From: Acidimicrobiia bacterium
Lineage (GTDB): Bacteria > Actinomycetota > Acidimicrobiia > Spongiisociales > JAHEDJ01
DNA: 59,390 nt
Direction: 5' to 3'
NCBI GenBank assembly: GCA_029210695.1
Contig: JARGFH010000022.1
Span: 1-59,390 of the forward strand
The notes under the pieces were generated by a model. The model worked only from the letters and a program-made list of their open reading frames with translations. It was not told the DNA's origin and searched no databases. Position numbers and translations under genes: made by a program. The stretch's first letter is position 1; each line of letters begins with the position of its first letter. Of the stretch, positions 6,012 to 37,365 are shown piece by piece.

Positions 6012-7790
6012 TCACGATCGCCTGATGTGCAGGATGTGGGCTTGCGGATGATCATTGGCCAGCTGACTGGCCAATGCGTGCTCGTAGGTAGTGACGATTA
6101 TCTGCTCCGGCGCATGCGCAGCAGATGCGTCAGCGAGATACCCCGCCACGGTGCGTCGCAGTTTGGGGTCGAGGTGTTCAAGGGGTTCGTCGAACCAGAC
6201 GAATGGCAATGTGGTGGAGCACTCAATTACCAGCAGGTGCGTGATGAGCCGCGCCCAAATCCGTTCGCCGCCACTGAGGCTGTCCCATCCGAGCTCTTCG
6301 CCAGCGACGAAACGGGTAACAGCGCCATCCGGTCGAAGCTGAAGCCCGCCGTCGTTGAACAGCTGCTTCCAGCGCCACTGCACTTCCCTGGCAATCGGCT
6401 CGATCCTTGTCGACGTGAGCTGTTCGGTAGCGGTTCGAAGAGCAGCAGCCGCGGCAGCCGCGACACCTTCGCGACGAAACGCCTCGGTGAGTCGGCGTTG
6501 AGCCTGCTGTACTTCGTTGTCCGCGTCGAGTTGCTGCCTGAGGGCGTCGATCTGGGAACGAAGCCCACCCAGGGTCGCGTTGTGGCTGTTGAGGGCATCG
6601 AGCGCTTCGCGGTACACCCGCTCGGCGAACTCGGGGTCTTGGTGCTCGTCGGACTGCGGGCCCTGCGGCTGGCTCAGGACTTCGAGCCGCGCCACAAGCG
6701 AGTTGATCCGTTCGAGTTGCGCAGTCGCCGTGGCTGCGGCACGGGACAGCTCGGATTCTTCGCGGTGTGCTCTTTCAGCGAGCTCGTAATGGGCTGCGCG
6801 GGCAACGGCAACGGCGTCTCGATCGATCGGTCTCAGACATGTGGGGCAGGTGGTGTGGTCACCCTCGAGGAGCTCAAGTCCGTGCTCGGCGGCGATGGTC
6901 GCGGCTCGGGCGTGATCCAGTTTCCCAATGGTTTCTTCCGTTCGGTCCGTGATGGTGACGCGGGCCTGCGCAAGCATCTCCTGGAGGACGACTCGATCAG
7001 CATCTGACGGCACCTGTTCGTCTGCAAGGACTTCCCTGACCTCCTTGGCGATGTCAACAAGCGCATCCTGAAACATGTTGGCCACGGTGCGGAATCGGGC
7101 CCACTCGGCCGCTAGTTGACGAGCCTGATCAGCGACAGCCAGCCCTGCTTCGAGGCGGGTACCGGTAGCTTCGGCGCCGACGACATCGCCTTGGAGCCTC
7201 GCGATGTCGGCCTCCACGGTTGCTCTATCGGCAACGCGCTGCTTGTCACTCGCCCGGAGTCCCTTGGTTGCCTTTTGAGCGTCCTTGAGTGCCCCGTCGG
7301 CCAGCTCCGATGCTCGGAGTAGGTTCGTGACCCCGAAGGCCTGGTGAAGATGCGTCTCGATATCGAGGGCTCGGTCTGAGGCGACATGTCCACCGCCGAG
7401 CATGACAGAAAGCCGTGCAGCCGTCGGCAGGTCAATGCCGAACTCGCTTTCGACAAGATCCTGGGCAGCTCCTGGATCCAGTTCTTCCTCGTTGAGGCGA
7501 TAGGTAGATGTTGGTGAGCCCCGGCGTTTGATGTTTCGTTCAATCGCGAGGGTCGATCCGTCGCGCAATGTCATCGAAATCTCGACGGTGGCCTGTTCGG
7601 TGCCGGCTCGGATACAGTCCTTCGGAGAGATGCTCCGGGCGTGTTCGCCGAATAGGGCCCACGCGAGGGCGTGCACGAGCGACGTCTTTCCAACGCCGTT
7701 GGGGGCTACCACGAAGGTTGTCCCCGGCGCGAAGTCGACGTCCAGGGAGTCGTACGACCTCCAGTTTCGAAGGCGAACATGGCGAATCAT
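6012..7790 (-). CDS. Rad50/SbcC/SMC-like AAA ATPase with zinc-hook motif
   Basis: This 592-residue protein has an ABC-type split ATPase. Walker A is 'APNGVGKTS' (29-37), the signature is 'LSGGER' (505-510), and Walker B is 'FVWFDEP' (530-536) followed by a D-loop. Between them are two coiled-coil-like, Ala/Glu-rich arms around a CPTC motif (315-318), the zinc-hook dimerisation site of Rad50/SbcC. It is shorter than SbcC (about 1000 residues). It overlaps the preceding gene by 4 nt and is the last gene of a three-gene operon. It probably acts on DNA, in repair or in defence; there is no nuclease partner in the operon. Confidence 0.8.
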   Translation of the reverse strand: MIRHVRLRNWRSYDSLDVDFAPGTTFVVAPNGVGKTSLVHALAWALFGEHARSISPKDCIRAGTEQATVEISMTLRDGSTLAIERNIKRRGSPTSTYRLNEEELDPGAAQDLVESEFGIDLPTAARLSVMLGGGHVASDRALDIETHLHQAFGVTNLLRASELADGALKDAQKATKGLRASDKQRVADRATVEADIARLQGDVVGAEATGTRLEAGLAVADQARQLAAEWARFRTVANMFQDALVDIAKEVREVLADEQVPSDADRVVLQEMLAQARVTITDRTEETIGKLDHARAATIAAEHGLELLEGDHTTCPTCLRPIDRDAVAVARAAHYELAERAHREESELSRAAATATAQLERINSLVARLEVLSQPQGPQSDEHQDPEFAERVYREALDALNSHNATLGGLRSQIDALRQQLDADNEVQQAQRRLTEAFRREGVAAAAAAALRTATEQLTSTRIEPIAREVQWRWKQLFNDGGLQLRPDGAVTRFVAGEELGWDSLSGGERIWARLITHLLVIECSTTLPFVWFDEPLEHLDPKLRRTVAGYLADASAAHAPEQIIVTTYEHALASQLANDHPQAHILHIRRS

Positions 7791-8692
7791 GCTGCGAGCG
7801 CTCCAACGATCTCACCGAGTCGTTCTGGCAGATCTTCGGGGCTCGCGACGCCTGATTCGAGATCGGAGATCAACCTCGCCAGCCCTGTCGTCTCCGTGTC
7901 ACCGAGATCTGACCAGGCCATTCGCTTCTCGGTGATTTGAGCGCGAGCGCCCTGGGCAGCGACAGCAAGCACAGACGACCTCACGATCGCAGGAACATCG
8001 ATTGCATCACTGCCGACGTCGAATGACCGGATCAAGTCAGCGTCCAGAGCTGTGAATGAAGGGGCGAGTTCGTTGATGAAGGCGGCGCACGCTACGGCAG
8101 CCGCCGCGATGGGCCGTGCGATCCGGGGTGGTCGGGACTGGCCGCTGGGGACCTCGAAAGCGGCTTCGAGGTCGGAACGCTCGATGATCACGCCGACCAT
8201 GGGCGGTTTGGTCATGAGCAGTATTCCGGCGGTCTCGCCGAACGCGCCGAATATGGCGGCCGCCGCTGAAATACGTCGAGGGGTCAGTTCATTGAGCTCG
8301 GAGTCGGCCGGCTCAAGCATGCCGCGAAGCCGGTGACCCCGGCAGGTGATGATCAGGTCACTGTCAATTCCGGACGCGCGGGCTGCGATGTCCGGGACGA
8401 CGTCGCAGCCCTCGTTGAGTTCATCGTGAAGGTCCGCCTCAAGCCGGCCGACGACGTCAGCGATGTCGCCGGCTGGCATCCGCGCCGGTTCGTGAGCGAG
8501 GAGTGCAGCGATCGACGGGCGTGAGGCTTGGGGATCGATTCCTCGCCCGGCTTTCAGGGACGCGATGAGCCGCTCCGCTTCTGCCCGCTGGGTGGCGGTG
8601 AGATGGTCGAGGGATGGCTCGTCGCCGCCGTGCTCGAGGAAATCGAGGTATGCGTCGAGGACCTCGTCGACCGGATCGAAGTCGTGCGTCAT
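7787..8692 (-). CDS. Conserved-looking protein of unknown function, between sigma-like and Rad50-like genes
   Basis: I do not recognise this 301-residue protein. The N-terminal 60 residues are acidic and helical ('VLDAYLDFLEHGGDEPSLD', then a 'AERLIASLKAG' helix), a size and charge that could suit a sigma-binding segment. The rest is Ala-rich with few distinctive motifs and no membrane helix. ATG 8692 is preceded by a strong AAGGAGG, and the gene overlaps both neighbours by 4 nt (ATGA), so the three proteins are made together in fixed ratio. A regulator or adaptor of the ATPase, or an anti-sigma-like factor, are both possible; neither is shown. Confidence 0.6.
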   Translation of the reverse strand: MTHDFDPVDEVLDAYLDFLEHGGDEPSLDHLTATQRAEAERLIASLKAGRGIDPQASRPSIAALLAHEPARMPAGDIADVVGRLEADLHDELNEGCDVVPDIAARASGIDSDLIITCRGHRLRGMLEPADSELNELTPRRISAAAAIFGAFGETAGILLMTKPPMVGVIIERSDLEAAFEVPSGQSRPPRIARPIAAAAVACAAFINELAPSFTALDADLIRSFDVGSDAIDVPAIVRSSVLAVAAQGARAQITEKRMAWSDLGDTETTGLARLISDLESGVASPEDLPERLGEIVGALAA

Positions 8693-9315
8693 CGGTTGCC
8701 TCCTTGTGTGAATCGTTGGAATCTCGGATGGTCATACAGCCGTTGGGCGATGCGCCGGTAGACGTAGGTCACGCCCGGTGGCGAGAGGTCGAACTCGTTG
8801 GCGAGCGAGTCCCTGCTTCGCTCGCCGGTGTGTAGCCCGAGGAAGATGGTTCGGTCTCGATCGTCAAGAAGCTCATGCGCGAGCTTGATGAGTTCGAGCT
8901 GTTGAGCGGTGGCAAAGAACTGCTCTTCGAGGTCCGGCCCTGTCGCCGCAATCCCTTCAAAGAGGGAACGACCCAGTGTTCCGTCCGCGCCCTCTGGTCC
9001 GGGATTATCGCCGGACACCATCGTGAGCTTGGGCCGGTGCCTTGTGGCGCGCAGCCACGCCTGCCCGTCGCGTAGGGCACCCTTGGTCTTGTTCGTCGCG
9101 ATTCCGAACGCCACCGCCTCCCAGCTCTCAGTGACCTGCTCCGGCGGTTTAGTGAGCAGCGCCTTGAGGCACTCGCTGAGGATGTCCTCAGTGCTGTGCC
9201 CGCCCTGAATCTGGAGTTCAGCAACCGGATCGCCAATCACTCGGGCGACGCCGGATCCAGTTCGTCGGCGCCGTGGCGCGTTCCGACGAATCACCCTGTG
9301 GATCTGTGCCCACAT
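8689..9315 (-). CDS. ECF-like RNA polymerase sigma-factor homologue
   Basis: This 208-residue protein has two sigma-70 regions. A region-2-like helix pair lies at about 40-85 ('STEDILSECLKALLTKP', 'SWEAVAFGIATNKT'). A region-4-like HTH lies at about 145-200 ('LLDDRDRTIFLGLHTGERS', 'SLANEFDLSPPGVTYVYRR'). The -10-binding region is degenerate, so it may be a sigma-like regulator rather than a full sigma. ATG 9315 is the first in-frame start after a double stop, with no strong ribosome site. It heads the operon and is divergent from the ubiquitin-like operon across 213 nt containing an inverted repeat. Confidence 0.65.
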   Translation of the reverse strand: MWAQIHRVIRRNAPRRRRTGSGVARVIGDPVAELQIQGGHSTEDILSECLKALLTKPPEQVTESWEAVAFGIATNKTKGALRDGQAWLRATRHRPKLTMVSGDNPGPEGADGTLGRSLFEGIAATGPDLEEQFFATAQQLELIKLAHELLDDRDRTIFLGLHTGERSRDSLANEFDLSPPGVTYVYRRIAQRLYDHPRFQRFTQGGNR

Positions 9316-9427
9316 GACGTCGACGATCAGCTCAAGGCGCTCCAGGTCGTCTTCGAGCGGATGCCGCGGTAGTGGGTGAGGGCGGTGGATTCATCATCTG
9401 CTGGTCTAACTGTCGCGACCCGACTCG

Positions 9428-9459
9428 AAAAAGAAAGCGATTCGATCAACTTTCTTTTT
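9428..9459. promoter_or_regulatory. Perfect 10-bp inverted repeat between divergent operons
   Basis: AAAAAGAAAG (9428-9437) and CTTTCTTTTT (9450-9459) are exact reverse complements with a 12-nt loop. They stand between the sigma-like/ATPase operon and the ubiquitin-like operon. An operator controlling both is the favoured reading. A hairpin with a T-run that attenuates the rightward transcript is the alternative. Confidence 0.55.
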
Positions 9460-9528
9460 GGTGTCTGGCCGCGACGTACACAGTGAGCCGCCCGCTCAAG
9501 AGAACAGACGACGAGAAGGAGTATCGCC

Positions 9529-9783
9529 ATGAACGACACCACCGTGTCAGAGATGAACCATGAGGTGCGATTTAGCATCGACGGCCAGCCATACAGCACC
9601 TGTGACCGCCGCCAGCCCGCGGCGGACTTGCTCCGGCTCGCTGGCCTCGACCCGAGCCTGTTCGATCTCGGAGAGGTGCGGGGCTCCAGCCCCGGAACCC
9701 GCCGTTACTCAGACGACGAGATCGTCAAGATCCGGCCGAGCGCTCGTTTCGTGTCCATCCGTGAACGCGCCGACGTGGCCTAG
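9529..9783 (+). CDS. Bacterial ubiquitin-like protein (multiubiquitin-domain type)
   Basis: This is an 84-residue protein with one beta-grasp-like domain of the Multiubiquitin kind: 'VRFSIDGQPYS', 'AADLLRLAGLDPSLFDL', 'DDEIVKIRPSARFVSI'. These correspond to the 'Ngk.y', 'LlalAGl.p..y.L' and 'rF.tv' positions of that family. ATG 9529 follows AAGGAG by 8 nt. It is the first gene of the operon with the E2-like and JAB-E1 genes. The C-terminus is 'RERADVA', without a terminal glycine or Gly-Gly, so activation by canonical E1 chemistry would need processing or is absent. Its only cysteine is at residue 25. Confidence 0.75.
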   Translation: MNDTTVSEMNHEVRFSIDGQPYSTCDRRQPAADLLRLAGLDPSLFDLGEVRGSSPGTRRYSDDEIVKIRPSARFVSIRERADVA

Positions 9784-10137
9784 ATGATGAGCGACGGGGT
9801 CGACGACTTCATCGAACGGGTGACCAGATTGGGTCTCGACCCCGTGGCCGATGGCCAACTGGTCATCTACAAGATCGAACCCGTCGACGGAGCCCACATC
9901 GGTGCCACGGTCCTCACGGGTGTCGCAATCGAGGAGCTCTCCAGGTGGCCGCTGGTACCTCCCCATTGGATCCACCTCCCAGCACCCGTCGAGTTCGCCC
10001 ACACCAACAGCCGGCCCTCTCCTCGTTCGGGATGGACCATGCATAGCCGTCAGATCACACGCTGGGGTCAAGACCCCGACCCCGGCGTAGGTTGGGTCGG
10101 CCACGTTCGCGGGGTCATCGGGGCAGCCACAGGATGA
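9784..10137 (+). CDS. E2/UBC-like protein (prokaryotic E2 family E type), cysteine-free
   Basis: This is a 117-residue protein. The landmarks 'WPLVPPHWIHLP' (about 54-65), 'FAHTNS' and 'GWTMHSRQITRW', followed by 'GWVGHVRG', match the pattern I know for Prok-E2_E. The predicted protein contains no cysteine at all, so the thioester of a classical E2 cannot form on it. It starts directly after the Ubl stop codon (ATG 9784 or 9787) and overlaps the JAB-E1 gene by 4 nt. It could act as a scaffold presenting the Ubl to the fused E1/JAB enzyme. Confidence 0.75.
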   Translation: MMSDGVDDFIERVTRLGLDPVADGQLVIYKIEPVDGAHIGATVLTGVAIEELSRWPLVPPHWIHLPAPVEFAHTNSRPSPRSGWTMHSRQITRWGQDPDPGVGWVGHVRGVIGAATG

Positions 10138-11642
10138 CCCGCGCCACCTCCGTCGCCTTGACCGGAGCGACCCACGCCCGTCTATGCGAACACTTGCTCC
10201 GTGACGATGGCCAGGAGGACCTCTGCCTAGCTACCTACCGAGCCTCTTCAGGCCGCAACCGTGCGACGGCGATCCTGCGAGATGTCATCCTCCCTCAGCC
10301 CGGCGAACGAGACGTTCACGGCAACGTCACCTTCACCGGCGAGTACGTGCTGCGAGCAACCGAGATCGCAGCACGTACTCAAGGTGGCATCGTCGTGTTA
10401 CACAGCCACCCTGGCGCCACCCGATGGCAGTCGATGAGCGGCCCCGACCGCGACGCCGAAAGCTCGTACGCCAACCTGGCCCGTGAACTCACCGGACTGC
10501 CCCTCGTCGGAATGACCCTCGCCGGCCGCGACCGGACATGGTCTGCACGCCACTGGGACACCGGCGTCGGACGAGACATCGCCGCCAGCCCCGCTCACAA
10601 CGTTCGGGTCATCGGTGCCACACTCGACATCTCATGGAATGACCGTGCCGTTCCCGCTCCTCGTACCACAGGACAGCACCGGAGGACCGTCAGTTGCTGG
10701 GGCGAAGAGGTGCAGGCGGATCTGGCACGTCGAAGGGTTCTGGTCGTAGGCGTTGGGAGTGTCGGCCTCGACGTTGCCGTTCGACTCGCCGCGTCCGGGC
10801 TGACCTCGATCACCGTTATGGATTTCGACATCGTGAAGGAACACAACCTCGACCGGCTGATCGGTGCGACGCGACGCGACGTAGCGCTCCGCCGCGCCAA
10901 GACTCACGTTGTGGGGCGGGAGGCACGCCGCAACTCCACCGCCGCGAACGCCCGAATTGAGATCTCGAACCTGAGCATCTGTGAACCCGAAGGCCTCGCG
11001 GTAGCACTCGACCACGACGTCATCTTTTGCTGCGTCGACCGGCCATGGCCTCGAGCCGTCCTCAACGGCATCGCCTACAGCGACCTCATCCCTGTGGTCG
11101 ATGGCGGCGTCGCCGTTGACACCATGCCAAGCGGAACACTTCGCAACGCGACCTGGCGATCCCACGTTGTCGCCCCAGGACGGCCGTGCCTCCTCTGCAA
11201 TCGACAACTCGACGCCGCCCAGGTCGCCCTCGACATGGACGGCCTGCTCGACGATCCTGACTACATCGCTGGTCGAGCCGGCCACCCGAATCAACCAGCC
11301 GGTCAGAACGTCGCCATGGTGTCGATTAACGCTGCGGCGAGCCTCTTGGCCCAGTACATCAGTCTCAGTGTCGGTCCCGCCGGCATGGGCGACCCTGGAC
11401 CACTCCAATACCTCCTGAGCACTCACGAGTTGCTGCACCTCGATCACCCGTCGAACCCGCACTGTCCCTACGAAGCAGCTGAAGCCGAAGGCAACAAACG
11501 CACGCCCCTCGTTGGAGCCCACTCCGCCGCCGACCATCTCCGCGCCAGCCACGGTTCTGACTTGCCTCTGAAAGTCAGAGCACTTCGCCTCGTCGACGAT
11601 CGTGTCGACTCGATCGAGCGTTGGCTCGATCGCCGCGCGTGA
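10134..11642 (+). CDS. JAB/JAMM isopeptidase - ThiF/E1-like adenylyltransferase fusion
   Basis: This is a 502-residue fusion. The N-terminal half has a JAMM zinc site: Glu28, 'HSHP' with His90 and His92, then Ser102 and Asp105 in 'MSGPD'. The second half is an E1/ThiF Rossmann domain: GxGxxG at 206-211, Asp230/Asp232 and 'NLDRL' (238-242). A CxxC at 352-355 and a lone Cys444 may be zinc ligands. Known relatives combine removal or trimming of a ubiquitin-like protein with its adenylation. Its ATG overlaps the E2-like stop. Both enzyme motifs look intact, in contrast to the Ubl and E2-like partners. Confidence 0.88.
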   Translation: MTRATSVALTGATHARLCEHLLRDDGQEDLCLATYRASSGRNRATAILRDVILPQPGERDVHGNVTFTGEYVLRATEIAARTQGGIVVLHSHPGATRWQSMSGPDRDAESSYANLARELTGLPLVGMTLAGRDRTWSARHWDTGVGRDIAASPAHNVRVIGATLDISWNDRAVPAPRTTGQHRRTVSCWGEEVQADLARRRVLVVGVGSVGLDVAVRLAASGLTSITVMDFDIVKEHNLDRLIGATRRDVALRRAKTHVVGREARRNSTAANARIEISNLSICEPEGLAVALDHDVIFCCVDRPWPRAVLNGIAYSDLIPVVDGGVAVDTMPSGTLRNATWRSHVVAPGRPCLLCNRQLDAAQVALDMDGLLDDPDYIAGRAGHPNQPAGQNVAMVSINAAASLLAQYISLSVGPAGMGDPGPLQYLLSTHELLHLDHPSNPHCPYEAAEAEGNKRTPLVGAHSAADHLRASHGSDLPLKVRALRLVDDRVDSIERWLDRRA

Positions 11643-11711: not shown

Positions 11712-11951
11712 GTGACCTTCTGCTCGCATTGCGCGAGCCCGTTCAATCTCGAGCGCCTGACGCTCAGGTCGCGTCCATCGGCGCCGACCAGCCCGATAGC
11801 GCCCACCTGCCTGATCTGTCAGGCAGCTACCACAAGACTGACGACGATCGCGAGGCCTGCCAAGATGACTGTTGCGCGTTGCATTCGAGCCAACTCCCTC
11901 GGCTCACGATCCAACGAGAAGGACGAACGTGAAGCTCTGCTACGTCGATGA
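11712..11951 (+). CDS. Possible small zinc-ribbon protein next to the ubiquitin-like operon
   Basis: This is a 79-codon frame starting at GTG 11712. It begins 'MTFCSHC' and has a second pair in 'TCLICQ' about 27 residues later, giving CxxC...CxxC as in a zinc ribbon. Third codon positions are mostly G/C over the first 50 codons, which favours a real gene. It overlaps the DUF3800 start by 23 nt. No known family is recognised. A competing frame from 11684 exists and cannot be excluded. Confidence 0.35.
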   Translation: MTFCSHCASPFNLERLTLRSRPSAPTSPIAPTCLICQAATTRLTTIARPAKMTVARCIRANSLGSRSNEKDEREALLRR

Positions 11952-12744
11952 GACCGGCACAGATGGCAAGAGCCCGGCCGTCGTGATGGTCGGGATCATC
12001 GCCGACGCAGCTCGCATTCACAGGACTCGATCCGAGTTCCGCGCGATCTACGAGCGTTTGGAAGGCCTGCCGGATGGGACGATTCGGGAGTTGAAGTCGA
12101 CCGAGCTCTATCGGGGGAAAAGGCGCTGGGATGGGGTCGATGGACAACTCCGGCACCAGGCGATCGGCGACTTCTGCGATTGGCTCTGCGAAAGGAAACA
12201 TGACATCGCATTGGCTGCGCTGGACTACACCCGATTCGAGGGATCACCCCTCCACGATCAAGGCCTAGACCGTTGGGGCGCCGCTGCGCTTCACGTCGCC
12301 CTCCAAGTTCAGCGAGCGCACCAGGGCAAGAAGAAGAACAAGGGCAGCACTTTTCTCGTCTTTGATGAGAACAAGCAGAAGACGGACGCCCTAGCTCAGC
12401 TGCTCTACGAACCGCCAGCGTGGTCCGACACCTACTACGACCGTTCTGCGAAGAACGAGGCCCTTGACCAAATCATTGATACGGCTTTCTATGCCCAATC
12501 ACATCACGTAGGACTCGTGCAGGTCGCCGACCTTTTCGCGTTCCTGTTCAAGAGATACTCAGAGCTCTTGGACTATGGCCACGATGAAGACTTCCAGGGC
12601 GAGCGTGACAAGGTATCCGGATGGGTCAAAACCTTGAGCAGCAGACTGCTCCCGGCCGCACACCGCTGGCCGAAGAAACCGAAGAACGACCCTGCAAGAT
12701 GGTACGTCGACCTGGCTCCTGCAAGTCTCCGCGCTATCGGGTAG
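11929..12744 (+). CDS. DUF3800 protein (RNase H-like fold family)
   Basis: This is a 271-residue protein. DUF3800 hallmarks are the N-terminal 'CYVDETGT' acidic strand, 'LKSTELYRGK', 'FLVFDENKQK' and 'VQVADLFAFLFKRY'. The Asp/Glu residues at these places resemble an RNase H-type metal site. GTG 11929 with GAGAAGGA just upstream is preferred to the earlier in-frame starts because the conserved region starts at once. DUF3800 genes are often found in defence neighbourhoods; a nuclease role is inferred. It is downstream of the JAB-E1 gene, separated by about 286 nt that include the possible zinc-ribbon frame. Confidence 0.8.
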   Translation: MKLCYVDETGTDGKSPAVVMVGIIADAARIHRTRSEFRAIYERLEGLPDGTIRELKSTELYRGKRRWDGVDGQLRHQAIGDFCDWLCERKHDIALAALDYTRFEGSPLHDQGLDRWGAAALHVALQVQRAHQGKKKNKGSTFLVFDENKQKTDALAQLLYEPPAWSDTYYDRSAKNEALDQIIDTAFYAQSHHVGLVQVADLFAFLFKRYSELLDYGHDEDFQGERDKVSGWVKTLSSRLLPAAHRWPKKPKNDPARWYVDLAPASLRAIG

Positions 12745-12765: not shown

Positions 12766-13482
12766 CTACTCCGGAGTCTCTGCAACTCCCAACGCCAACC
12801 TCGATTCCGCACGATCGAGTAGCCGCATGAGCAGGTCAGCGAGGAACACGACCTCGGAAGCCTCGATCGGGTCGGTGTAGTCGACTTGGCGATGGCTCGG
12901 CGGGTTCTTGAACGTACCAATAGCTCCAGCGAACAACTCCATAACACCAACCCGTTCCCCCGGATCCAGATTGGGGTCGCTGAGTGGACCACCATCGTTC
13001 TTGAAGGCTTCGCGCATCAACTTCACGCCGATGAGCGCCGAGTCCGCGTCGGCCAGCTCCCGGACCCGGATCTCCACCTCGCGCATGGCAGCGAAGGCTG
13101 CGAGCTCGTACTCCCCCAGAAGGAACTGTGATCGAACTTTTGTCAACAGGTGGTGCAAGTCCTCGTGGAGCCGCTCTGCTGCGTTGACACGACGGAGACC
13201 TTCTTCGAGAACGGACTGACCGAGTCGCGTGACGAATACTGCCTCGCTCCCCGACTGACCCGGAGTGCCGCGGGCAATCAACCCCTTGGCGACGAGCCAG
13301 TTGACCGCTTCCACAAGGCAACGCTGGGCTGGCACGCTGACGCCACGTTGTGCAGCACCCTTGACAAAGTTGCCCGAGTGCCACTCGCCAGTCTCCTCTA
13401 GATGCGCCAACACCACCAGACCCAACCGATCGATCGACAAGGAACACAGCTGATCGTCCGCGAGGGTCGTAAGTTCGCTCAT
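12766..13482 (-). CDS. TIGR02391-type (Ymh) protein with N-terminal winged-helix-like segment
   Basis: This is a 238-residue protein. The C-terminal half ('AAFAAMREVEIRVREL', 'LMREAFKNDGGPLSDP', 'LFAGAIGTFKNPPSHR') fits the TIGR02391 family, small proteins common on plasmids and defence islands. The first 90 residues look like a helix-turn-helix that reads 'LVEAVNWLVAKGLIARG'. Its biochemical role is unknown; relatives are sometimes discussed as abortive-infection-like proteins. It converges on the DUF3800 gene with 21 nt between them and stands alone. ATG 13482 is the first start of the frame. Confidence 0.7.
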   Translation of the reverse strand: MSELTTLADDQLCSLSIDRLGLVVLAHLEETGEWHSGNFVKGAAQRGVSVPAQRCLVEAVNWLVAKGLIARGTPGQSGSEAVFVTRLGQSVLEEGLRRVNAAERLHEDLHHLLTKVRSQFLLGEYELAAFAAMREVEIRVRELADADSALIGVKLMREAFKNDGGPLSDPNLDPGERVGVMELFAGAIGTFKNPPSHRQVDYTDPIEASEVVFLADLLMRLLDRAESRLALGVAETPE

Positions 13483-24272: not shown

Positions 24273-27200
24273 ATGCGTAATACTGGCAGTTTCCTGATCG
24301 ATCAGCCGGGGCCTATCCCCTGGCAGCTCCCCGAAGTAGGCCGCGGATCATTCCAAGCGTGCGACCTGTTCCTTGGCAAAGGCGCCCACCCGCTCGAAGT
24401 CGCCGTGGCCACCGCGCCCACCCGCCCCAATGTGAGCGATGTCCGTCAACTCTGGAAACGTCGCAAGGACAACCGCGCCGCTCCCCTGCTGCTGATCGTC
24501 CTCTATCAAGGGGCGCACGGGCTGCGAGCCGCGATGTGTGGGCCGACCGGTGACAACCCACCGGTCCAGGACGACCGGGATCCAGGCCAGGCAGAACGGA
24601 TCGCGACGTCGGCCCTAGCCGAGCCAAACCGTAACGCTGCGATCCGGTTCCTGCACGAAGTCCTTCCCGAATCGGACTCGGATCTGGCGGGTATCCGCAA
24701 CGCTGGGATGTTCGCCACCCACCAACTGAAGGATGGGGTACCGACCCGCCCCGACTGGGCAGCGATGACCAAGACCGGTCAGACGGCTTTGAATAAACGA
24801 GGTCAGGACCTGATCCGGTCGCTCGGGTTCATCATCGACCAATTGGGCGCTGCTACGTCGGTGTTGCGGTTAGAGGACAACGGCGCCAAGACCGCCGTGG
24901 CGATCTTCCTCGACGAGAACGAAACGCCCGAAGGTGCCGCCCCGCGGTTCGGTGGAACCAGCCCGATCTCTCACGCCCTCGCCCAGGCCGATGCAGAGTC
25001 GCTCCCCTATGTGGTGTTGACCAGGGGCAGCCAGATCCGGGTGTATGCCGCCCGCAAGCACACCGGGGTAGGTCGCAAAGGCCGGGCGGAGACGTTCATC
25101 GAAGCCAACCTGGCGCTCTTACCCGATGACCTGGCCGGCTACCTGCCGTTGCTGTTCGGCGCCGATGCTCTCCGCCCCGAGGGGAGTTTCGAGCAGATCC
25201 TCGAGGAGTCCCAACGGTTTGCCTCAGGGCTTGGGGAGCGGCTTCGGGACCGCGTCTACAACCAGGTGGTGCCGCATTTGGCCCGCGTGGTAGCTGCCCA
25301 CCACAAGGCCAATGGCTCGACTGTCACCGAGCAGGATCTCGCCGACCTGTACGAACTGGCAATGGTGATCCTGTTCCGGCTGCTGTTCGTTGCCTACGCA
25401 GAGGACAAGGACCTGCTCCCTTACCGGTCGAATGGGCTGTACCAGCGCAACGCCCTCAAGACCCTGGCTGCCGGTCTGGCGGACCGGGTCAACCAGGATC
25501 ACACCGACTTCGACCCCGCCGCCACCGACATGGGGGACCAGATCCGCAGCCTCTCCAAAGCGGTCGATCAGGGCAATCGGGACTGGGCGGTCCCCGCCTA
25601 CAACGGGGGGATGTTCTCCTCCGACCCAGATATCAGCCAGGTTGGTGCTCGTCTCGCCGAGTTGAGCCTCACGAACGCCGAGATCGGCCCGGCTTTGCTC
25701 GCCCTTTTAGTGGACCGTACGGACGAGGACGTGCACGGACCGGTCGACTTCCGGTCGCTTTCGGTCCGGGAGTTCGGAACCATCTATGAAGGTCTGCTGG
25801 AGTCCAACCTCTCCGTAGCGCCGTCCAACCTGACGGTGGCGAGTGATGGCGCGTATGTACCTGCCGGGGACCGTGACGAAGTGGTGGTTGTTGAGGGAGA
25901 AATCTACCTGCACAACCGATCTGGCGCCCGCAAGGCCACCGGAAGCTACTTCACCAAACCCTTCGCCGTTGAGCATCTCCTCGAGCACGCCCTAGAGCCT
26001 GCCCTCGACGATCATCTCAAGCGACTGCGTGAACTCACTGACGCCGGTGAGGAGCATAAGGCCGCCGACGCCTTCTTCGATTTCCGCTGCGCCGACATCG
26101 CTATGGGTTCCGGGCACTTCCTGGTTGCAGCCGTCGACCACATCGAAGCACGTCTCTCCTCGTTCCTCGCCGAACATCCGATCCCGGGAGTGGTCAATGA
26201 ACTCGAGCGCATCCGGGCCGCCGCCTTCGAGAACCTTGGTCCTGACCTGGCCGACGCCTACGAGATTGAACAGGCCAGCCTGCTTAGACGTCAGGTGGCC
26301 CGACGGTGCATCTACGGGGTGGACCTCAATCTGATCGCCGTCGAGTTGGCTCGGTTGGGAATGTGGATCCACACGTTCGTGCCAGGGCTGCCACTTAGTT
26401 TCTTGGATCACAACCTCGTGCAGGGGAACAGCCTCACCGGGATCGGCACGATCGACGAGGCGCTCGACATCCTCGTCCCGGAAACGGGCAGGACCGGAAC
26501 ACCCTCCCTGTTACGCAGCCAGATCGAAGGGTGGCTAGAGCGTGCAGAGGACGCCCTAAGTCGGCTGGGGCGAATCAGCGATGCCACTGCCCGCGAGATA
26601 CGGGATGCCCGAGCAGCGCATGACCAGGCAACGGAGGCTGTGGAACCTGCACGAAAGCTATTCGATTTGCTCATCGCCGTCCGAATCGGTGCCATTCCGA
26701 GATTCGAGGATGTGTCAGATGAAACGCTGGCACATCCGCAGCTGAAGGAGGCCGTGGGCCTAGCCAGCCAACTCGGAGCGCTACATTTCCCGATAGCGTT
26801 TCCGGAGGTATTTTCGCGGGGACGCCCTGGCTTCGACTGCATTGTTGGGAATCCGCCTTGGGAGGAAGTCAAGACGGAGGAACTGGCGTTCTGGAACCTC
26901 CACTTCCCGGGCCTGAAGGGTATGGCGAAGACCCTCCAGAAGAGCCAGATCAGGTTGAACAGGGCACAGCGACCGGATCTGGTAGCCGAATACGAGACTC
27001 AGCTCGCCGAGTCCGACGCTGTGCGCCACGCCCTCCTCGCCGGACCGTATGACGGTATGTCGGAAGGTGATCCGGACCTCTACAAGGCTTTTGCCTGGAG
27101 ATTCTGGCAACTGTCGCACGAGGATGGCTTCGTTGGGGTCGTTCTTCCGAAGAGCATTCTCGCGACGAAGGGCTCAGCACCTTGGCGCAGGACGGTGCTC

Positions 27201-28289
27201 CCGCGGTCCCACACGACAATCGACCTCTGCAGGAATCAGAATGAATGGCTCTTCACTGATGTGAATCCGGGCTATCCGATTGCGTTGGTGGAATTCGTCA
27301 AGGGGTTCGCTGATGGCGACCTGACGATAAGAGGCACTCACGCATCAGTCGATGAATTGCTCGAGGCGAGACGGCTTCCCGGTGGGGTCCTCCGGGTCGA
27401 TCGTCTGGCGCTTATCGACCCCTTGATATGTGTTCCGGCCGTGGAGTCAAGAGCCGAGGTGGAGCTACTCGGCGCCTTGCTCGAACACCCGGCGTTCGGT
27501 CAGCCCGACAGACCCGACTTCCGAGCGCGACCACACACGGAGTTGCACGTAACCAACGATGAGCGTTGGTTCTCCGATGCTGGGGATGAGATCTACAACC
27601 ACCTAAACATCGAGAGACATAGGTTCGCGCGGGAGACTGGCGCTTTTGCCCACGGCGATTTCAACGCTATCGCCGAGGATCTCCAGCGGCAACGGATGCG
27701 ATTAGCCCGACACCAAAGATCACCTTTCTCGGAAATGGCGCCGGAGTGGGCGGCCAATCCCAAGTCGCTGCCAGCACGGAATCCGAGGATTGCATATCGG
27801 GCGATCATCCACGCTTCCAACCCAAGGAAGATGTGGGCGGCGCTCGTGCCTCCGCGGCACCTCCTCACCAACGCAGCCCCTTACCTCCTTTTCCCCCGTG
27901 GTGGGGTGACTGAGCAGGCGTATGTCCTGGGAATGCTCAATTCGTCCGTCTGTGACTGGTTCGGGCACCTCCGCATCGTGCTCAACCTCAACTATTTCAT
28001 CCTCAATTCGGTTCCTGTACCGCTTCTGAGGAGAAGCGAGCGTGTTGATAGGTTCATCGGCATTGCTGCGGGTCTCGCCATCACCGAAGCTCACGACTGG
28101 GGTGAATGGACAAGCATTGCGCATGATCCAGGCACCGACGTCACCAGCGCCTACGCAGAACTCGATGCAATTGCCTTCCTCGAATACGGACTCGAAGAGG
28201 GACACAAGGCTCTGGTCTGGACGGAAGAGGGTGACGTTGCTCACCCCCCTAGGGATCTCGTCGAGTCGTTTATCAAGAGATGGCGATGA
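24273..28289 (+). CDS. Eco57I-type adenine-specific DNA methyltransferase of a restriction-like system
   Basis: This 1338-residue protein starts at ATG 24273; a TTG 36 nt upstream is an alternative. The N-terminal 500 residues are helical and unassigned. The methylase core has motif I 'MGSGHFL' (Gly612 area) and the catalytic 'NPPW' at 860-863, typical of N6-adenine enzymes. The C-terminal part after residue 860 would hold target recognition. The size fits Eco57I-like, PglX or DISARM DrmMI proteins. It overlaps the helicase gene by 4 nt, so the pair is one unit. Codon use after about 26560 is visibly more relaxed than before it, which suggests a mosaic recognition region. Confidence 0.82.
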   Translation: MRNTGSFLIDQPGPIPWQLPEVGRGSFQACDLFLGKGAHPLEVAVATAPTRPNVSDVRQLWKRRKDNRAAPLLLIVLYQGAHGLRAAMCGPTGDNPPVQDDRDPGQAERIATSALAEPNRNAAIRFLHEVLPESDSDLAGIRNAGMFATHQLKDGVPTRPDWAAMTKTGQTALNKRGQDLIRSLGFIIDQLGAATSVLRLEDNGAKTAVAIFLDENETPEGAAPRFGGTSPISHALAQADAESLPYVVLTRGSQIRVYAARKHTGVGRKGRAETFIEANLALLPDDLAGYLPLLFGADALRPEGSFEQILEESQRFASGLGERLRDRVYNQVVPHLARVVAAHHKANGSTVTEQDLADLYELAMVILFRLLFVAYAEDKDLLPYRSNGLYQRNALKTLAAGLADRVNQDHTDFDPAATDMGDQIRSLSKAVDQGNRDWAVPAYNGGMFSSDPDISQVGARLAELSLTNAEIGPALLALLVDRTDEDVHGPVDFRSLSVREFGTIYEGLLESNLSVAPSNLTVASDGAYVPAGDRDEVVVVEGEIYLHNRSGARKATGSYFTKPFAVEHLLEHALEPALDDHLKRLRELTDAGEEHKAADAFFDFRCADIAMGSGHFLVAAVDHIEARLSSFLAEHPIPGVVNELERIRAAAFENLGPDLADAYEIEQASLLRRQVARRCIYGVDLNLIAVELARLGMWIHTFVPGLPLSFLDHNLVQGNSLTGIGTIDEALDILVPETGRTGTPSLLRSQIEGWLERAEDALSRLGRISDATAREIRDARAAHDQATEAVEPARKLFDLLIAVRIGAIPRFEDVSDETLAHPQLKEAVGLASQLGALHFPIAFPEVFSRGRPGFDCIVGNPPWEEVKTEELAFWNLHFPGLKGMAKTLQKSQIRLNRAQRPDLVAEYETQLAESDAVRHALLAGPYDGMSEGDPDLYKAFAWRFWQLSHEDGFVGVVLPKSILATKGSAPWRRTVLPRSHTTIDLCRNQNEWLFTDVNPGYPIALVEFVKGFADGDLTIRGTHASVDELLEARRLPGGVLRVDRLALIDPLICVPAVESRAEVELLGALLEHPAFGQPDRPDFRARPHTELHVTNDERWFSDAGDEIYNHLNIERHRFARETGAFAHGDFNAIAEDLQRQRMRLARHQRSPFSEMAPEWAANPKSLPARNPRIAYRAIIHASNPRKMWAALVPPRHLLTNAAPYLLFPRGGVTEQAYVLGMLNSSVCDWFGHLRIVLNLNYFILNSVPVPLLRRSERVDRFIGIAAGLAITEAHDWGEWTSIAHDPGTDVTSAYAELDAIAFLEYGLEEGHKALVWTEEGDVAHPPRDLVESFIKRWR

Positions 28290-31200
28290 GCAAAGCAAAG
28301 CCCGAGTTCGCGACCAACCGTTCGGATGAGATGGTGGCCGATGCGCTGCGTAGTCATCTCGGCTACTTGCTGGAGACGTGGGCGAAACCGTTCGAGGTGG
28401 CGGTCGCAACTGCCTACTTCAACTCGGGTGGATTCGGTCTGATTGCCAACGAGTTGGAGAGGGTCGGTGAAGTGCGGTTGTTGTTGGGGGCGGAGCCGGA
28501 TGCGCGTGAGTGGCGTATCCGCAACCTGGACCCGAAGACCCCCCCGCAACGAGCGGAGCGGGCTCGTCTCCGCAACGCTCTGGTTGGTCATGAGCGGGAG
28601 ATCGAACAGGACCGGGATCTGCTCGGGTTTGAGATCGAAGCGGATGCTGGCGCAAAAAGGCTGATCGAGTGGTTGCGTTCGGGCCGGGTCGAGGTGCGCC
28701 GTTTCGAGGAGGGCTTCCTGCACGGGAAGGCGTTCCTGGTCACCACCGATGATGAGGGTGTTGTGGCCGGATCATCGAACTTCACTTACGCCGGGTTGGC
28801 CAAGAACCTCGAGTTGAACTTGGGCCACTATCAGCCGCACGTGGTCAAGCAGGTGCGGGAGTGGTACGAGGAGCTGTGGAAGGATGCAGTCCCGTTCGAC
28901 CTCGCCGAAATCTATGACGCCCGGTTCGAACCCCACAACCCTTACCTGATCTATTTGCGGATGCTGTACGAGCGGTACGGTCGGGAGATCGAGGACGAGG
29001 CCCGCGACGCCGGCACGGGTATCCATCTGACAGAGTTCCAGCGGGACGGTGTGTGGCGTGCCCGGCGGATCCTCGACCGGTACACCGGGGTGCTGGTCGC
29101 CGACGGAGTCGGGTTGGGCAAATCGTTCATCGCCGGGGAGCTGATCCGAGAAGCGGTGATCGATCGCAGGCAGCGGGTGCTGTTGGTGGCGCCGGCGGCG
29201 CTACGGGACGGGATGTGGAGGAAGTTCCTGCTCACCCACCAGCTCGGAGTGGAGATCAAGTCCTATGAAGAACTCTCCGAGGACCCAAGACTCAATCCCC
29301 AAGGTGCCGGGTCAGGCTTGGCTTTCGGCTTAAACGACTATGCGATGGTCGTGATCGACGAATCGCACGCCTACCGCAACCCGGAAACGCTCCGTGCCGA
29401 GGTGCTGCGGAAACTGTTGGGGGGAACCCCACCCAAGGAGCTGGTCCTGTTGACAGCCACCCCGGTGAACAACAGCCTGTGGGACCTTTACTACCTGCTC
29501 AACTACTTCGTGAAGAACGACGCAGCGTTCGCCGACACGGGGATCCGGAGCCTTCGAGACCATTTCGCTCAGGCGATGGCGGAAGACCCCGACGACCTGA
29601 CCCCCGACCGGCTGTTCGATGTCCTGGACGCGGTGGCAGTGCGCCGGACCCGCCACTTCGTGAAGCGCTACTACCCGAACGACTCCATCACCCTCGACGG
29701 CATCCAGGTGCAGATCACGTTCCCGAAACCGGTCGTGCACAAGGTGACCTATAACCTCGATGACGTGCTGCCGGGGTTCTTCGAAAGGTTCGCTCATGCT
29801 CTCGACTGTGATGAACCCGATTGTGGCCGCGACGATCACGCCTCGGTGCAGGGTGAACCGGTCCTGCATCTCGCCCGGTACAGCCCGACCCGTTTCTTGC
29901 GGAACCTCGATGATCTCCTTGATGCCGATACCGAGCAAGGTGTCGAGGTGCGGCGCAGGCGGTCCTCTGAAATCCCACTTGGTGGTCTGCTGCGGTCAGG
30001 GCTGTTGAAACGGTTCGAGTCGTCCGCTCACGCTTTCGCCAAGACTTGCCGCCGGATGGCCGGAAGCCACGATGGTTTCTTGGATCTTCTCGGCGTCGGG
30101 AAGGTAGCGACCGGGGAAGCGTTAGCCGAATGGCTGAAGGCCGACACCGACGAACTGGACGCATACCTAGAGGAACATGGCGACCTCGACGACGCTGATC
30201 TCTACGACACCGATACTCTCCGCGCTGCCGTCAAGGCTGACCGGAAGTTACTGCTCGACTTCGCCGGCCAGGCGGAGACGGTCACCTGGGACCGGGACCC
30301 GAAACTCACCGCTTTGGTCGAGGAGATGCGGGAGATCCTCACCCAGGCAGAGGATGAAAAGATCGGCGAGGAGGATGCACGCAACCGGCGAAAGGTGCTG
30401 GTGTTCTCCTATTTCGCTGATACCGCCAGGTGGATCACCGACTACCTCGAGGACGTCTTCGCCACCGAACCCGACCTGACACCTTACAGGGATCGACTGG
30501 CGCAGATCACCGGTTCCGCGGGCGATAGGAGCGAGGTGCTGTTTGGGTTCGCCCCAGTGTCCAGCGAAGCACCGGAGGGCTTGAACCAGGACCGTTTCGA
30601 CGTCCTAGTCTCCACCGATGTGCTCGCCGAGGGCGTCAACCTGCAGCAAGCCCGCCACATCATCAACTTCGACCTGCCCTGGAACCCGATGCGGATGGTG
30701 CAGCGCCACGGGCGGATCGACCGGATCGGCTCCCTCCATGACCGGGTGTACGTCCGCTGTTTCTTCCCCGACCAGCAGTTGGACGGGCTCCTGGGTTTGG
30801 AGGAGCGACTGCACAACAAGATCACCCAAGCGGCACGCACCATTGGGGTCGAGGGCGAGGTGCTGCCCGGTTCGGAGACAAGCGACCGGGTCTTTGCCGA
30901 GACCCGCGAGGAGATCGAACGGCTTCGCCGGGAGGAAACCACCCTGTTCGAAACTGGAGGTGAGGGTGGACACGCCTACTCGGGCGAGGAGTACCGTCAG
31001 GAACTCCGCCAGGGACTAGCTGACCCCGACACTGCCCGGCTGATCAAGGCTCTCCCGTGGGGGTCCGGCAGCGGCATGGTCCGGGCCGGCGCCAGCCCAG
31101 GGTTCGTGTTCTGTGCCCGGGTCGGCGACCACCCCGAACCTCTCTACCGGTACGTCGAAATGACAGACACCGGCGAAACGGACATTGTCGCCGACACGCT

Positions 31201-31690
31201 CACCTGTCTCGCCCATGCCCACGCCGGCGTCGACAGCGACAGAGTGCTCAGCGACGACACCCACCGGACCGCCTACGATGCTTGGGCGGCCGCCCGACAG
31301 CACATCCTCGACGAATGGACGCTTGCGACCGACCCGGCCAACCTGCAACCGTCCGTCCCGAAAACAATGCGGGACGCCGCCCAGCTGATTCGCGACTACC
31401 CGCCGGCTGGACTCACCCAAGACGAGGTTGACCGGCTGGTTGATACCCTGGAGGCGCCGTACGGGAATCGCATCCAGCGGGTGATCCGGGCGGCGATGCG
31501 CTCATCCGAGGATCCCCGCCAAGCAGCGGTAGCCATCGCACAAGCGGTAGAGGAGCAGGGTCTCGAACCGGCCCCACCAGTGGAGCCGCTCCCGGTGATC
31601 ATCGCCGATGACATCCACCTGGTCTGCTGGCAAGCGATCGTCCCCTCGGAGACCACCGGAGAACCTCCAGGTAACGATCGTCGGTTATGA
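28286..31690 (+). CDS. PLD-like nuclease domain fused to SNF2/HepA-type helicase
   Basis: This 1134-residue protein starts with a phospholipase-D-type domain ('FLHGKAFLV' with His146, then 'GSSNFT'), a single HKD motif. A SNF2-like helicase follows: Walker A 'GVGLGKSF' (274-281), 'VIDESHAY' with Asp358, 'LLTATPVNN', and motif VI 'QRHGRIDRIG'. The C-terminal 250 residues are unassigned. ATG 28286 overlaps the methylase stop; ATG 28280 is also in frame. This probably translocates on DNA and cuts unmodified DNA, acting with the methylase. It is related to but not the same as the DISARM helicase set. Confidence 0.85.
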   Translation: MSKAKPEFATNRSDEMVADALRSHLGYLLETWAKPFEVAVATAYFNSGGFGLIANELERVGEVRLLLGAEPDAREWRIRNLDPKTPPQRAERARLRNALVGHEREIEQDRDLLGFEIEADAGAKRLIEWLRSGRVEVRRFEEGFLHGKAFLVTTDDEGVVAGSSNFTYAGLAKNLELNLGHYQPHVVKQVREWYEELWKDAVPFDLAEIYDARFEPHNPYLIYLRMLYERYGREIEDEARDAGTGIHLTEFQRDGVWRARRILDRYTGVLVADGVGLGKSFIAGELIREAVIDRRQRVLLVAPAALRDGMWRKFLLTHQLGVEIKSYEELSEDPRLNPQGAGSGLAFGLNDYAMVVIDESHAYRNPETLRAEVLRKLLGGTPPKELVLLTATPVNNSLWDLYYLLNYFVKNDAAFADTGIRSLRDHFAQAMAEDPDDLTPDRLFDVLDAVAVRRTRHFVKRYYPNDSITLDGIQVQITFPKPVVHKVTYNLDDVLPGFFERFAHALDCDEPDCGRDDHASVQGEPVLHLARYSPTRFLRNLDDLLDADTEQGVEVRRRRSSEIPLGGLLRSGLLKRFESSAHAFAKTCRRMAGSHDGFLDLLGVGKVATGEALAEWLKADTDELDAYLEEHGDLDDADLYDTDTLRAAVKADRKLLLDFAGQAETVTWDRDPKLTALVEEMREILTQAEDEKIGEEDARNRRKVLVFSYFADTARWITDYLEDVFATEPDLTPYRDRLAQITGSAGDRSEVLFGFAPVSSEAPEGLNQDRFDVLVSTDVLAEGVNLQQARHIINFDLPWNPMRMVQRHGRIDRIGSLHDRVYVRCFFPDQQLDGLLGLEERLHNKITQAARTIGVEGEVLPGSETSDRVFAETREEIERLRREETTLFETGGEGGHAYSGEEYRQELRQGLADPDTARLIKALPWGSGSGMVRAGASPGFVFCARVGDHPEPLYRYVEMTDTGETDIVADTLTCLAHAHAGVDSDRVLSDDTHRTAYDAWAAARQHILDEWTLATDPANLQPSVPKTMRDAAQLIRDYPPAGLTQDEVDRLVDTLEAPYGNRIQRVIRAAMRSSEDPRQAAVAIAQAVEEQGLEPAPPVEPLPVIIADDIHLVCWQAIVPSETTGEPPGNDRRL

Positions 31691-35427: not shown

Positions 35428-37365
35428 GTGGAAACAGCAGAACGAAAGACCAGCGGAGACGATGCGGTGGATCGACTCCACCAGCAGCTCCAGGACTCGC
35501 TGCAGGAACTCGTCACCTCGGAGGATTGGCAGCGGGCGCTGTCGGTCGCGGCCCGCTTCCACGACTACTCGTTCGCCAACACCCGCTTGATCTGGGCCCA
35601 GTCGATCGCTCGCGGGTCTACGCTGAGCCGGGTTGCCGGCTATCGGGCTTGGCAGAAACTCGGCCGCCACGTCCGCAAGGGTGAGCGGGGACTCCAGATC
35701 CTTGCCCCGGTCATCCGCAAGGTCACACCCGACAACGGAGAGGAGGAAGAGCGCCGGGTCGTCGGGTTCCGAGTCGTCCACGTCTTCGACATCGCCCAGA
35801 CCGACGGCGACCCCCTCCCCGAGGTGCCGATCACGCTCGTCGAAGGCGATCTCCCCTCTCACTGGGAGCAAGTTCGTGGGCTCATCACCGAATCCGGTTT
35901 CGACCTCCAGGTCGCCGACATCGAGCGGCTCGGTGAAGCCAACGGCATCACCGACTGGAAGCGACGAGACGTGGTTGTGCGTGCCAGCCTGCCCGGCGCC
36001 CAGCGGTTCAAGACAGCAGTTCACGAACTCGCCCACATCCGGCTGCACGAGCCGAACTCCGACGGTCGGCCTTCGTGTCGGGGCATCGTCGAGGTTGAGG
36101 CCGAGTCCGTCGCGTACATGGTCTGTGCCGGTTTGGGGATCGACAGTGCTGGCTATAGCCTCGGATATGTGGCGTCGTGGAGCGGAGGCGACCTCACCAA
36201 GGTGGCCGCCACCGCCAACCGGGTGATCGGTTGTGCTCGCCAGGTGCTCGCCCAGATCGAGCAGGAACGCCAACTCGGCCGTGAGGCGGTTTCGTCCGGT
36301 TCCCGGATGGAAGTACGGGATCGGGAGTCTCCACAGCGGACACCAGCGCCTACCGCCCGATCGGACCTCGAGGCGGCCGTCAACGCCGCCACGGCGTTTT
36401 ACCAACGCCAACTCCACGAGCCAGCCGGGGCGGCGGCAGTCGAGTGTCTCGGCGGCCGTGGCATCGACACGGAGGCGATCGATCTGTGGCAGCTGGGCTA
36501 TGCACCCGACTCATGGCAGGCGTTGACCACGGCGCTCCGCAAGCAAGGCTTCAGCGATGACCTACTCCTCGGGGCCGGCGTTGCCGGCCGATCTCGGTAC
36601 GCGCGCGTCTACGACCGGATGCGCAATCGAGTGATCTTTCCCATCCATGATGAGCACGGTGAACCAAGAGGCTTCGCCGGACGGCTCCTCACCGGAGACG
36701 GGCCTAAGTATCTCAACACTCCCGAGACCGACCTGTACCAGAAGCGGTCCTTGCTCTACGGCTTCCACCTCGCCCGCCAGCCCATCGTCGAGACCGGCAA
36801 CGCAGTCGTCGTTGAGGGCTACACCGATGCCATCGCCGCCCACCAAGCGGGGATCACCAACGTCGTGGCAACGGCCGGCACAGCCCTCACTCCGGAGCAC
36901 CTGGAGACGCTCAGCCGGATAACCGCCAACGTGACTCTCCTCTTCGACGGAGATCAGGCCGGCGTATTAGCAGTCGAGCGTGCAGGTGTCCTCGACCAGG
37001 CCAAGAACTCCATACGGGTTTCGGTCGCACACCTTCCTCCGGGGCTCGATCCAGCGGAGCTTCTCGCACGTGACACACAAGCTCTCATGCAGGTACTCAC
37101 CACCGCTGTCCCGATCGAACACCACTTGATCGATCAGATCATCGCCAACCACAACCTCGAGGAACCCGAGGCCATGGCTCGGGCGATCCACGCGGCGACC
37201 GAGGTGATCCGGTCCGTTGGCTATGCGGACATACGCCATGCGGCCACTGCACACCTCGCGACTCGCATCGGTCGAGACGAGCAGCTCATTCACACCTACC
37301 TCGAGCAGAGCCTTCAGCGGCAGCCACACAAGAGGGGCCGAGCACGAACGCTAGGCATCGCCTGA
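35428..37365 (+). CDS. ArdC-like antirestriction domain fused to zinc-peptidase-like and Toprim primase parts
   Basis: This is a 645-residue protein. The N-terminal ArdC-type ssDNA-binding domain (about 10-130: 'FANTRLIWAQSIARGSTLS', 'YRAWQKLGRHVRKGERG') is followed by an HExxH peptidase motif ('AVHELAH', His199-His203) with a later 'EVEAESVAYM'. From about 330 on is a DnaG-like primase core with Toprim motifs 'VVVEGYTDAI' and 'LLFDGDQAG'. No zinc finger of the primase type is visible. Such proteins protect and prime the incoming strand. GTG 35428 has no ribosome site and sits 18 nt after the repeat, so translation may be leaderless. Confidence 0.85.
   Translation: METAERKTSGDDAVDRLHQQLQDSLQELVTSEDWQRALSVAARFHDYSFANTRLIWAQSIARGSTLSRVAGYRAWQKLGRHVRKGERGLQILAPVIRKVTPDNGEEEERRVVGFRVVHVFDIAQTDGDPLPEVPITLVEGDLPSHWEQVRGLITESGFDLQVADIERLGEANGITDWKRRDVVVRASLPGAQRFKTAVHELAHIRLHEPNSDGRPSCRGIVEVEAESVAYMVCAGLGIDSAGYSLGYVASWSGGDLTKVAATANRVIGCARQVLAQIEQERQLGREAVSSGSRMEVRDRESPQRTPAPTARSDLEAAVNAATAFYQRQLHEPAGAAAVECLGGRGIDTEAIDLWQLGYAPDSWQALTTALRKQGFSDDLLLGAGVAGRSRYARVYDRMRNRVIFPIHDEHGEPRGFAGRLLTGDGPKYLNTPETDLYQKRSLLYGFHLARQPIVETGNAVVVEGYTDAIAAHQAGITNVVATAGTALTPEHLETLSRITANVTLLFDGDQAGVLAVERAGVLDQAKNSIRVSVAHLPPGLDPAELLARDTQALMQVLTTAVPIEHHLIDQIIANHNLEEPEAMARAIHAATEVIRSVGYADIRHAATAHLATRIGRDEQLIHTYLEQSLQRQPHKRGRARTLGIA

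Follow-up and report, generated by a model that had tools for sequence, protein, structure and literature searches.

A Bub-type ubiquitin-like operon with a conserved Val-Ala terminus beside a divergent trio with sigma-like and Rad50-like genes

The window, by which we mean the whole 59,390-nucleotide stretch of DNA analysed here, carries an operon of the Bub (bacterial ubiquitination-like) or 6e type, which has known relatives and is no oddity. Two of its features may be new: the Val-Ala/Ser end of its ubiquitin-like protein (Ubl), conserved across the subfamily, and a divergent gene trio standing where relatives have ImmA/IrrE (CapH/CapP-like) controllers. The best explanation, to which we assign a probability of roughly 0.55, is Bub-type conjugation and deconjugation in which a tyrosine would replace the E1 cysteine and expression would stand under the divergent trio. 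To our knowledge, ubiquitin-like conjugation uses a glycine end and, outside Bub, cysteine thioesters. A widespread conserved family using neither would show how far this chemistry can drift, and the trio, if a controller, would extend the known means of controlling Bub-type operons by a sigma-factor switch with an ATPase of the type that binds DNA ends.

The operon comprises three forward-strand genes. The Ubl gene (9529–9783, +) encodes a BubA-like protein of 84 residues with a single beta-grasp domain and the ending RERADVA; the E2-like gene (9784–10137, +) encodes a cysteine-free, BubB-like protein of 117 residues; and the JAB-E1 fusion gene (10134–11642, +) encodes a BubCD-like protein of 502 residues, counted from the ATG at 10134, in which a JAMM domain precedes a ThiF/E1 adenylation domain. 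The Ubl stop abuts the E2-like start (TAG, then ATGATG) and the E2-like stop overlaps the JAB-E1 start (ATGA). The open reading frames and translations agree with a first-pass annotation made from the sequence alone, which had described an operon of these three genes with an 84-residue Ubl ending in Asp-Val-Ala and a 117-residue E2-like protein without cysteine. The order Ubl, E2-like, JAB-E1 is maintained in every readable locus and recurs in loci of at least seven phyla, at JAB-E1 identities of 35–70%, so the three reading frames are real genes. By itself, Pfam is weak for the first two: the Ubl matches Multi_ubiq under the family cut-off (E = 0.019) and a Pfam search with the E2-like protein gave no match; in JAB-E1 it recognizes ThiF (E = 3.5e-23). 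The family assignment is settled by solved structures, the closest being Citrobacter BubCD, BubB and BubA (PDB 9EA4, 9EA5, 9EA8, 9EAE, 9EAV and 9D59), released in 2025.

The JAB-E1 protein is homologous to BubCD in both domains. Its profile matches BubCD at E = 9e-38 over positions 8–415, spanning both domains, with MoeB far behind (E = 4e-16) and Cap2 at about 3e-9. The AF2 model (mean pLDDT 79.5) aligns to BubCD 9EA4 with Z = 33.5 over 421 residues (3.6 Å, 21% identity) and to MoeB with Z = 21; AF2 input alignments were shallow, at 19 and 10 rows. The Ubl and E2-like proteins were modelled together by joining the in-frame genes and reading the intervening TAG as Gly (mean pLDDT 89). The Ubl part of this model aligns to the multi-ubiquitin protein 9D5B (Z = 11.3) and to BubA 9EA8_B (Z = 8.5), and Foldseek matches the Ubl to 8U38 (E = 2e-4). 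An E2 fold, which the first-pass annotation had proposed to check by predicted structure, is recovered in the other part, which aligns to BubB 9EAE_C with Z = 8.0 over 109 residues, a score that is borderline as lone evidence; BubB is also the only PDB match of the E2-like profile (E = 0.027).

Conservation in JAB-E1 is concentrated at its two catalytic sites. In an alignment of 24 divergent sequences, drawn from the window's branch as well as the Bub/DUF6527 one, the only positions that do not vary are L21, E28, A79, H90, H92, P93, D105, R139, G206, G222, D230, D232, N238, R241, K256, D295, D302, A314 and Y377. Besides Tyr377 and a few others, these belong to the JAMM and ATP sites. The metal site had been called intact on five residues, and four of them, E28, H90, H92 and D105 (Asp104 of BubCD), prove invariant; the fifth, Ser102, is present here yet varies in relatives, being Ser or Asn and rarely another residue. 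Alignment with relatives likewise upholds the intact E1 nucleotide motifs (G206xGSxG, D230xD232, N238, R241, K256 and D302). No cysteine is invariant across the 24 sequences.

Tyr377 (codon 11262–11264, +), the counterpart of Citrobacter BubCD Tyr370, lies in a loop before a late E1 helix, the place where cysteine-using E1s of the same fold have their cysteine; the loop around it is poorly modelled (pLDDT <50 for residues 375–395). The Bub paper is said to argue for oxyester chemistry, a point on which nothing here rests. PDB entry 9EAV contains BubCD(D104A/Y370F)–BubB–BubA(155–229) and names Y370F in its title; the making of this substitution indicates that its authors considered Tyr370 important. 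Together, that title and the conservation of the residue suggest a tyrosine-based step. With no conserved cysteine in either the E2-like or the JAB-E1 proteins, the earlier argument that classical E2-thioester chemistry cannot run here holds, and its alternative of conjugation through the E1 part has gained substance: the E1 part, with an invariant tyrosine shared with BubCD, is the likeliest, if putative, place for a covalent step.

Absence of the E2 cysteine is a property of the family. An alignment of 21 E2-like proteins contains no conserved Cys column, which answers the question, raised with the first-pass annotation, of whether the cysteine is missing throughout homologues. The description of the operon as a reduced version does not survive this comparison, an E2-like protein without catalytic cysteine being the family norm (PMC1779556; Citrobacter BubB). 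The only invariant residue among the 21 is Ser88 (codon 10045–10047, +), which sits in a W-x-x-x-S-R motif and has an equivalent in BubB. A family-wide E2 cysteine was considered and rejected, as the cysteines present are shared by only 5 of the 21 proteins. These have a Cys directly before the conserved Trp and come from four actinobacterial plasmids (L023 and L025–L027) and one genomic locus (L020); the chemistry of this subgroup, borne mostly on actinobacterial plasmids, may be different.

The Ubl terminus is conserved in a different form from the familiar glycine. The codons of Val83-Ala84 occupy 9775–9780 (+), and the penultimate Val is present in 22 of 22 Ubls of the subfamily, followed by Ala (16), Ser (4), Val (1) or Glu (1). 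Glycine is thus missing from the end throughout these homologues, another point that had been raised for checking, and since all 22 end in Val-Ala/Ser, with Val-Val and Val-Glu once each, no terminal glycine is used. This conservation is consistent with direct use of the Val-Ala/Ser end. More distant 6e/Bub members do end in Gly, as in the Asn-Phe-Gly of a Mesorhizobium Ubl (L028) and Gly229 of the Citrobacter BubA construct, and the tree splits the Val-Ala/Ser set from the Gly-ending set (support 100/99), a split to be read with caution because of long branches. In two-domain Ubls (L013, L020, L023, L024, L026 and L027), the Val-Ala/Ser tail is found on the last domain only.

Alternatively, the JAMM domain could first trim the Ubl tail, so that the conjugated residue would not be Ala84 and Val-Ala would serve only as a signal for processing or recognition. 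Processing is required in the Citrobacter system, where a single ORF encodes BubA and BubB (L037, Citrobacter braakii) and the PDB constructs are divided after Gly229, and four relatives have Ubls ending in Gly-Gly-Val-Ala or Gly-Pro-Val-Ala. However, the conservation sits in Val-Ala/Ser itself, whereas the residue before the Val varies (Asp, Pro, Gly, Thr or His); 13 of the 22 Ubls, the window's copy among them, have no Gly in their last 12 residues; and the window's Ubl and E2-like protein are already encoded by separate genes. We therefore regard tail trimming as unlikely here. The narrower idea that the JAMM domain unmasks a glycine was set aside as unlikely too, the window's Ubl having no Gly near its end.

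On the preferred reading of Bub-type conjugation, the E1 half of JAB-E1 would adenylate the C-terminal carboxylate of the Ubl, at Ala84, with no trimming to glycine. The activated Ubl would then be passed on through Tyr377 in the place of a cysteine, probably by an acyl-tyrosine (oxyester) step, while the cysteine-free E2-like protein would dock and orient the Ubl or the target, its invariant Ser88 perhaps participating; the JAMM half would detach the Ubl from targets. A quite different possibility, which we consider improbable, is that no protein is conjugated, and that the Ubl is adenylated for sulfur carriage or for small-molecule or peptide amidation of the MccB/ThiF kind, or works chiefly by non-covalent assembly, as in multi-ubiquitin filaments. 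E1 folds of this kind do include MoeB, ThiF and MccB, and solved multi-ubiquitin relatives form filaments, according to the titles of 9D59 and 9D5B. Against these points, no rhodanese or sulfur genes were seen adjoining the operon, all 24 JAB-E1s retain the JAMM site, and the title of Ye et al. 2026 shows that the nearest solved relatives have been named and investigated as a pathway for conjugation. Decay or misreading of the operon, for which the missing Pfam match of the E2-like protein might have spoken, we reject as next to impossible: homologues contradict it, the lack of cysteine and the Val-Ala end are found family-wide, and the catalytic residues of the JAMM and ATP sites do not vary. 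The decayed or misread copy that the first-pass annotation had named as its own possible undoing is thus not what the family comparison reveals.

Operons of this design are known from comparative genomics, as type 6e of Iyer, Burroughs and Aravind 2006 (PMC1779556), where a standalone cysteine-free E2/RWD-like protein is encoded beside JAB-E1, a solo-Ubl version occurs in Alteromonas, and the distribution is described as mobile and sporadic. The window shares with type 6e the Ubl, the separate, sandwiched gene for an inactive E2/RWD-like protein and the fusion of JAB to E1, but type 6e usually has two to three Ubl repeats and a treble-clef-like metal-binding protein. No gene for the latter was found downstream of the operon, where the next genes are DUF3800 (11929–12744) and Hypoth_ymh (12766–13482), and the same source lists the protein as associated, not as obligatory. 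Neither DUF3800 nor Hypoth_ymh stays with the Bub operon in the relatives retrieved.

Similarly, the window agrees with the Bub pathway (Ye et al. 2026, reported to cover 544 Bub operons, and Gong et al. 2025, both cited in PMC13373217) in having a Ubl, an E2-like protein without catalytic cysteine and a JAB-E1 fusion, in identical JAMM and adenylation residues, in the loop tyrosine (Tyr377, matching BubCD Tyr370) and in the damage-type regulators that adjoin related operons. It differs in that its Ubl is single, separate and ends in Val-Ala, whereas the Citrobacter Ubl, after processing, ends in a Gly exposed from a BubA–BubB fusion. In addition, no DUF6527 gene adjoins the window's operon, JAB-E1 identity is only about 21%, with the window on a separate, well-supported branch, and the neighbouring genes are the trio described below. 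Since a terminal Gly may be a defining trait of Bub and all 22 Ubls of the subfamily lack it, we claim membership as a divergent branch only. Bil, type II CBASS Cap2 and other bacterial E1/E2 systems also combine a Ubl or E1/E2 with JAB in bacterial operons. Bil, Cap2 and similar systems use E1 and E2 cysteines; by contrast, no such cysteine is conserved in the window's family, and the JAB-E1 profile lies far nearer to BubCD.

A genome scan returned ten JAB-E1 loci at 38–70% identity, in records named for Hyphomicrobiales, Actinomycetes, Dehalococcoidia, Thermoanaerobaculia, Caldilineaceae, Gemmatimonadota, Parcubacteria and Bacteroidota. Within the window's phylum, 6 of 396 genomes have the locus, a count that takes in the window's own genome, and in another group 1 of 249 genomes does. 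Plasmid-borne relatives occur in Mycobacterium, Nocardioides, Rhodococcus, Pseudarthrobacter and Clavibacter; a scan of viral contigs confirmed no phage-borne ones. In a Dehalococcoidia MAG (L007, 6001–7509), the JAB-E1 gene is broken by an internal stop, either a sequencing error or decay.

Divergent from the operon lies a trio of reverse-strand genes, which the first-pass annotation had left out of the unit although they appear to belong to it. The first encodes a sigma-70/ECF-like factor (8689–9315, −) that is linked to the operon in seven loci; the window's protein matches sigma70-ECF weakly, under the cut-off (E = 0.0012), and relatives match more strongly (region 4 at E = 4e-7 in L008, region 2 at E = 5e-7 in L022). 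The second encodes a 301-residue protein (7787–8692, −) with no family match that is conserved with the trio, and the third a Rad50/SMC-like ATPase (6012–7790, −; SMC_N, E = 1.2e-20) that also matches Rad50 models (3e-19), mad3 (2e-21) and LmuB (4e-17). A PADLOC system identity was not adopted, the matches amounting to generic E1-E2, mad3 and LmuB similarity. The trio also adjoins the operon, divergently or co-directionally, in L004, L005 (the same stretch as L006), L008, L009, L021 and L030; in L018/L032, an SMC gene stands alone beside the operon, where the contig ends.

In 13 other loci, the place of the trio is taken by an ImmA/IrrE (M78) peptidase gene, often with an HTH gene, and within the stretches seen no locus has both; the window's own M78 gene lies about 26 kb from the operon. 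An HTH protein with an M78-type peptidase is of the CapH+CapP type, and CapH+CapP, CapW and CapK+CapS control Bub and CBASS upon DNA damage (PMC13373217). The window's relatives resemble those systems in the ImmA/IrrE genes, mostly with HTH, that adjoin their Bub operons, and L037 has a CapK/CapS-like pair, assigned by reading. The sigma, 301-residue and Rad50-like trio beside the window's operon differs from these controllers and is not mentioned in PMC13373217, the text of which contains no mention of SMC or Rad50. According to that EMBO J paper, no protection against phage has been demonstrated for Bub operons; a role of the window's operon in defence would be putative. In L022 (3837–6072), a sigma-like gene is followed by genes for a 222-residue protein and an ImmA/IrrE peptidase in place of the 301-residue protein and the ATPase, a mixed cassette that makes the control cassettes look modular.

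Several observations bear on whether the trio controls the operon. Between the two units lies a dyad (9411–9476) of back-to-back promoter-like elements, CTTTC-N16-RCRAC, one (9450–9476, +) facing the Ubl operon and the other (9437–9411, −) facing the sigma operon. The element precedes both units in six loci, five of them divergent and the sixth L008. Its spacer is exactly 16 nt in 10 of 10 half-sites of the five divergent loci, in some of which one to two of the first parts are mismatched, and the outer arms of the dyad covary between loci. Two loci provided an independent check: in L008, whose units run in the same direction, each unit is preceded by the element (at −62 and −119), and in L047, with the trio only, it lies at −40 before the trio. 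It is absent from L021 and L022 and from eight of the nine ImmA/IrrE-type loci tested; the ninth (L026) has a copy at −250 that differs by one mismatch. When one mismatch is tolerated, the element has a background frequency of 0.09 per kb and strand in the window. The whole 3.9-Mb genome contains seven exact matches, two of which are the window pair, and three of the reversed pattern; with so few matches, the sigma-like factor probably serves mainly the window locus. A scan for generic sigma-70 promoters gave no match. Folding of the intergenic RNA is ordinary (z = −1.2), for which reason we interpret the dyad as DNA sites.

The trio could instead be an unrelated hitchhiker, a DNA-repair or defence cassette that does not control the operon. 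Other genomes of the phylum have it in the absence of Bub, in one case with a Ku gene after it, and the tree places seven of eight trio loci in one clade, so shared descent accounts for part of the linkage. Yet gene order differs among the trio–operon loci, the trio and ImmA/IrrE exclude each other within the stretches seen, with ImmA/IrrE in the close relative L007, and the identical promoter-like element precedes both units even where these are not divergent (L008); mere hitchhiking is on balance doubtful. From these sequence patterns, the operon seems to be activated by a sigma factor of its own, whose gene stands with that of the Rad50-like ATPase. The sigma-like factor would act at the identical back-to-back promoters and so drive the Ubl operon as well as its own, and the ATPase probably gates this control as a sensor of DNA damage. 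The full combination, a branch of Bub in which a Ubl is conjugated by its terminal Ala/Ser through an E1 tyrosine, without any catalytic cysteine, under a dedicated alternative sigma factor gated by the Rad50-like ATPase, we put forward tentatively, as a proposal with appreciably less than even chances.

As a portable cassette without Bub, the trio was found in L047–L050, L052 and L053. The Ku gene directly after it in L047 fits a connection with DNA ends. Plasmid searches with the 301-residue and sigma proteins gave no match, although L021 has diverged copies.

The operon lies on a stretch with conjugation genes, including those for a TrwC relaxase, a coupling protein, an AAA_10 ATPase and TcpC. 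Near the relaxase gene, 35428–37365 encodes a protein that joins an N-terminal anti-restriction domain of the ArdC type to an M78-like stretch and a DnaG-type primase with Toprim. At 24273–31690, a large Eco57I-type methylase gene precedes a gene that combines PLD and helicase parts; the two are probably a defence pair of the restriction type and lie on the same conjugative element as the operon.
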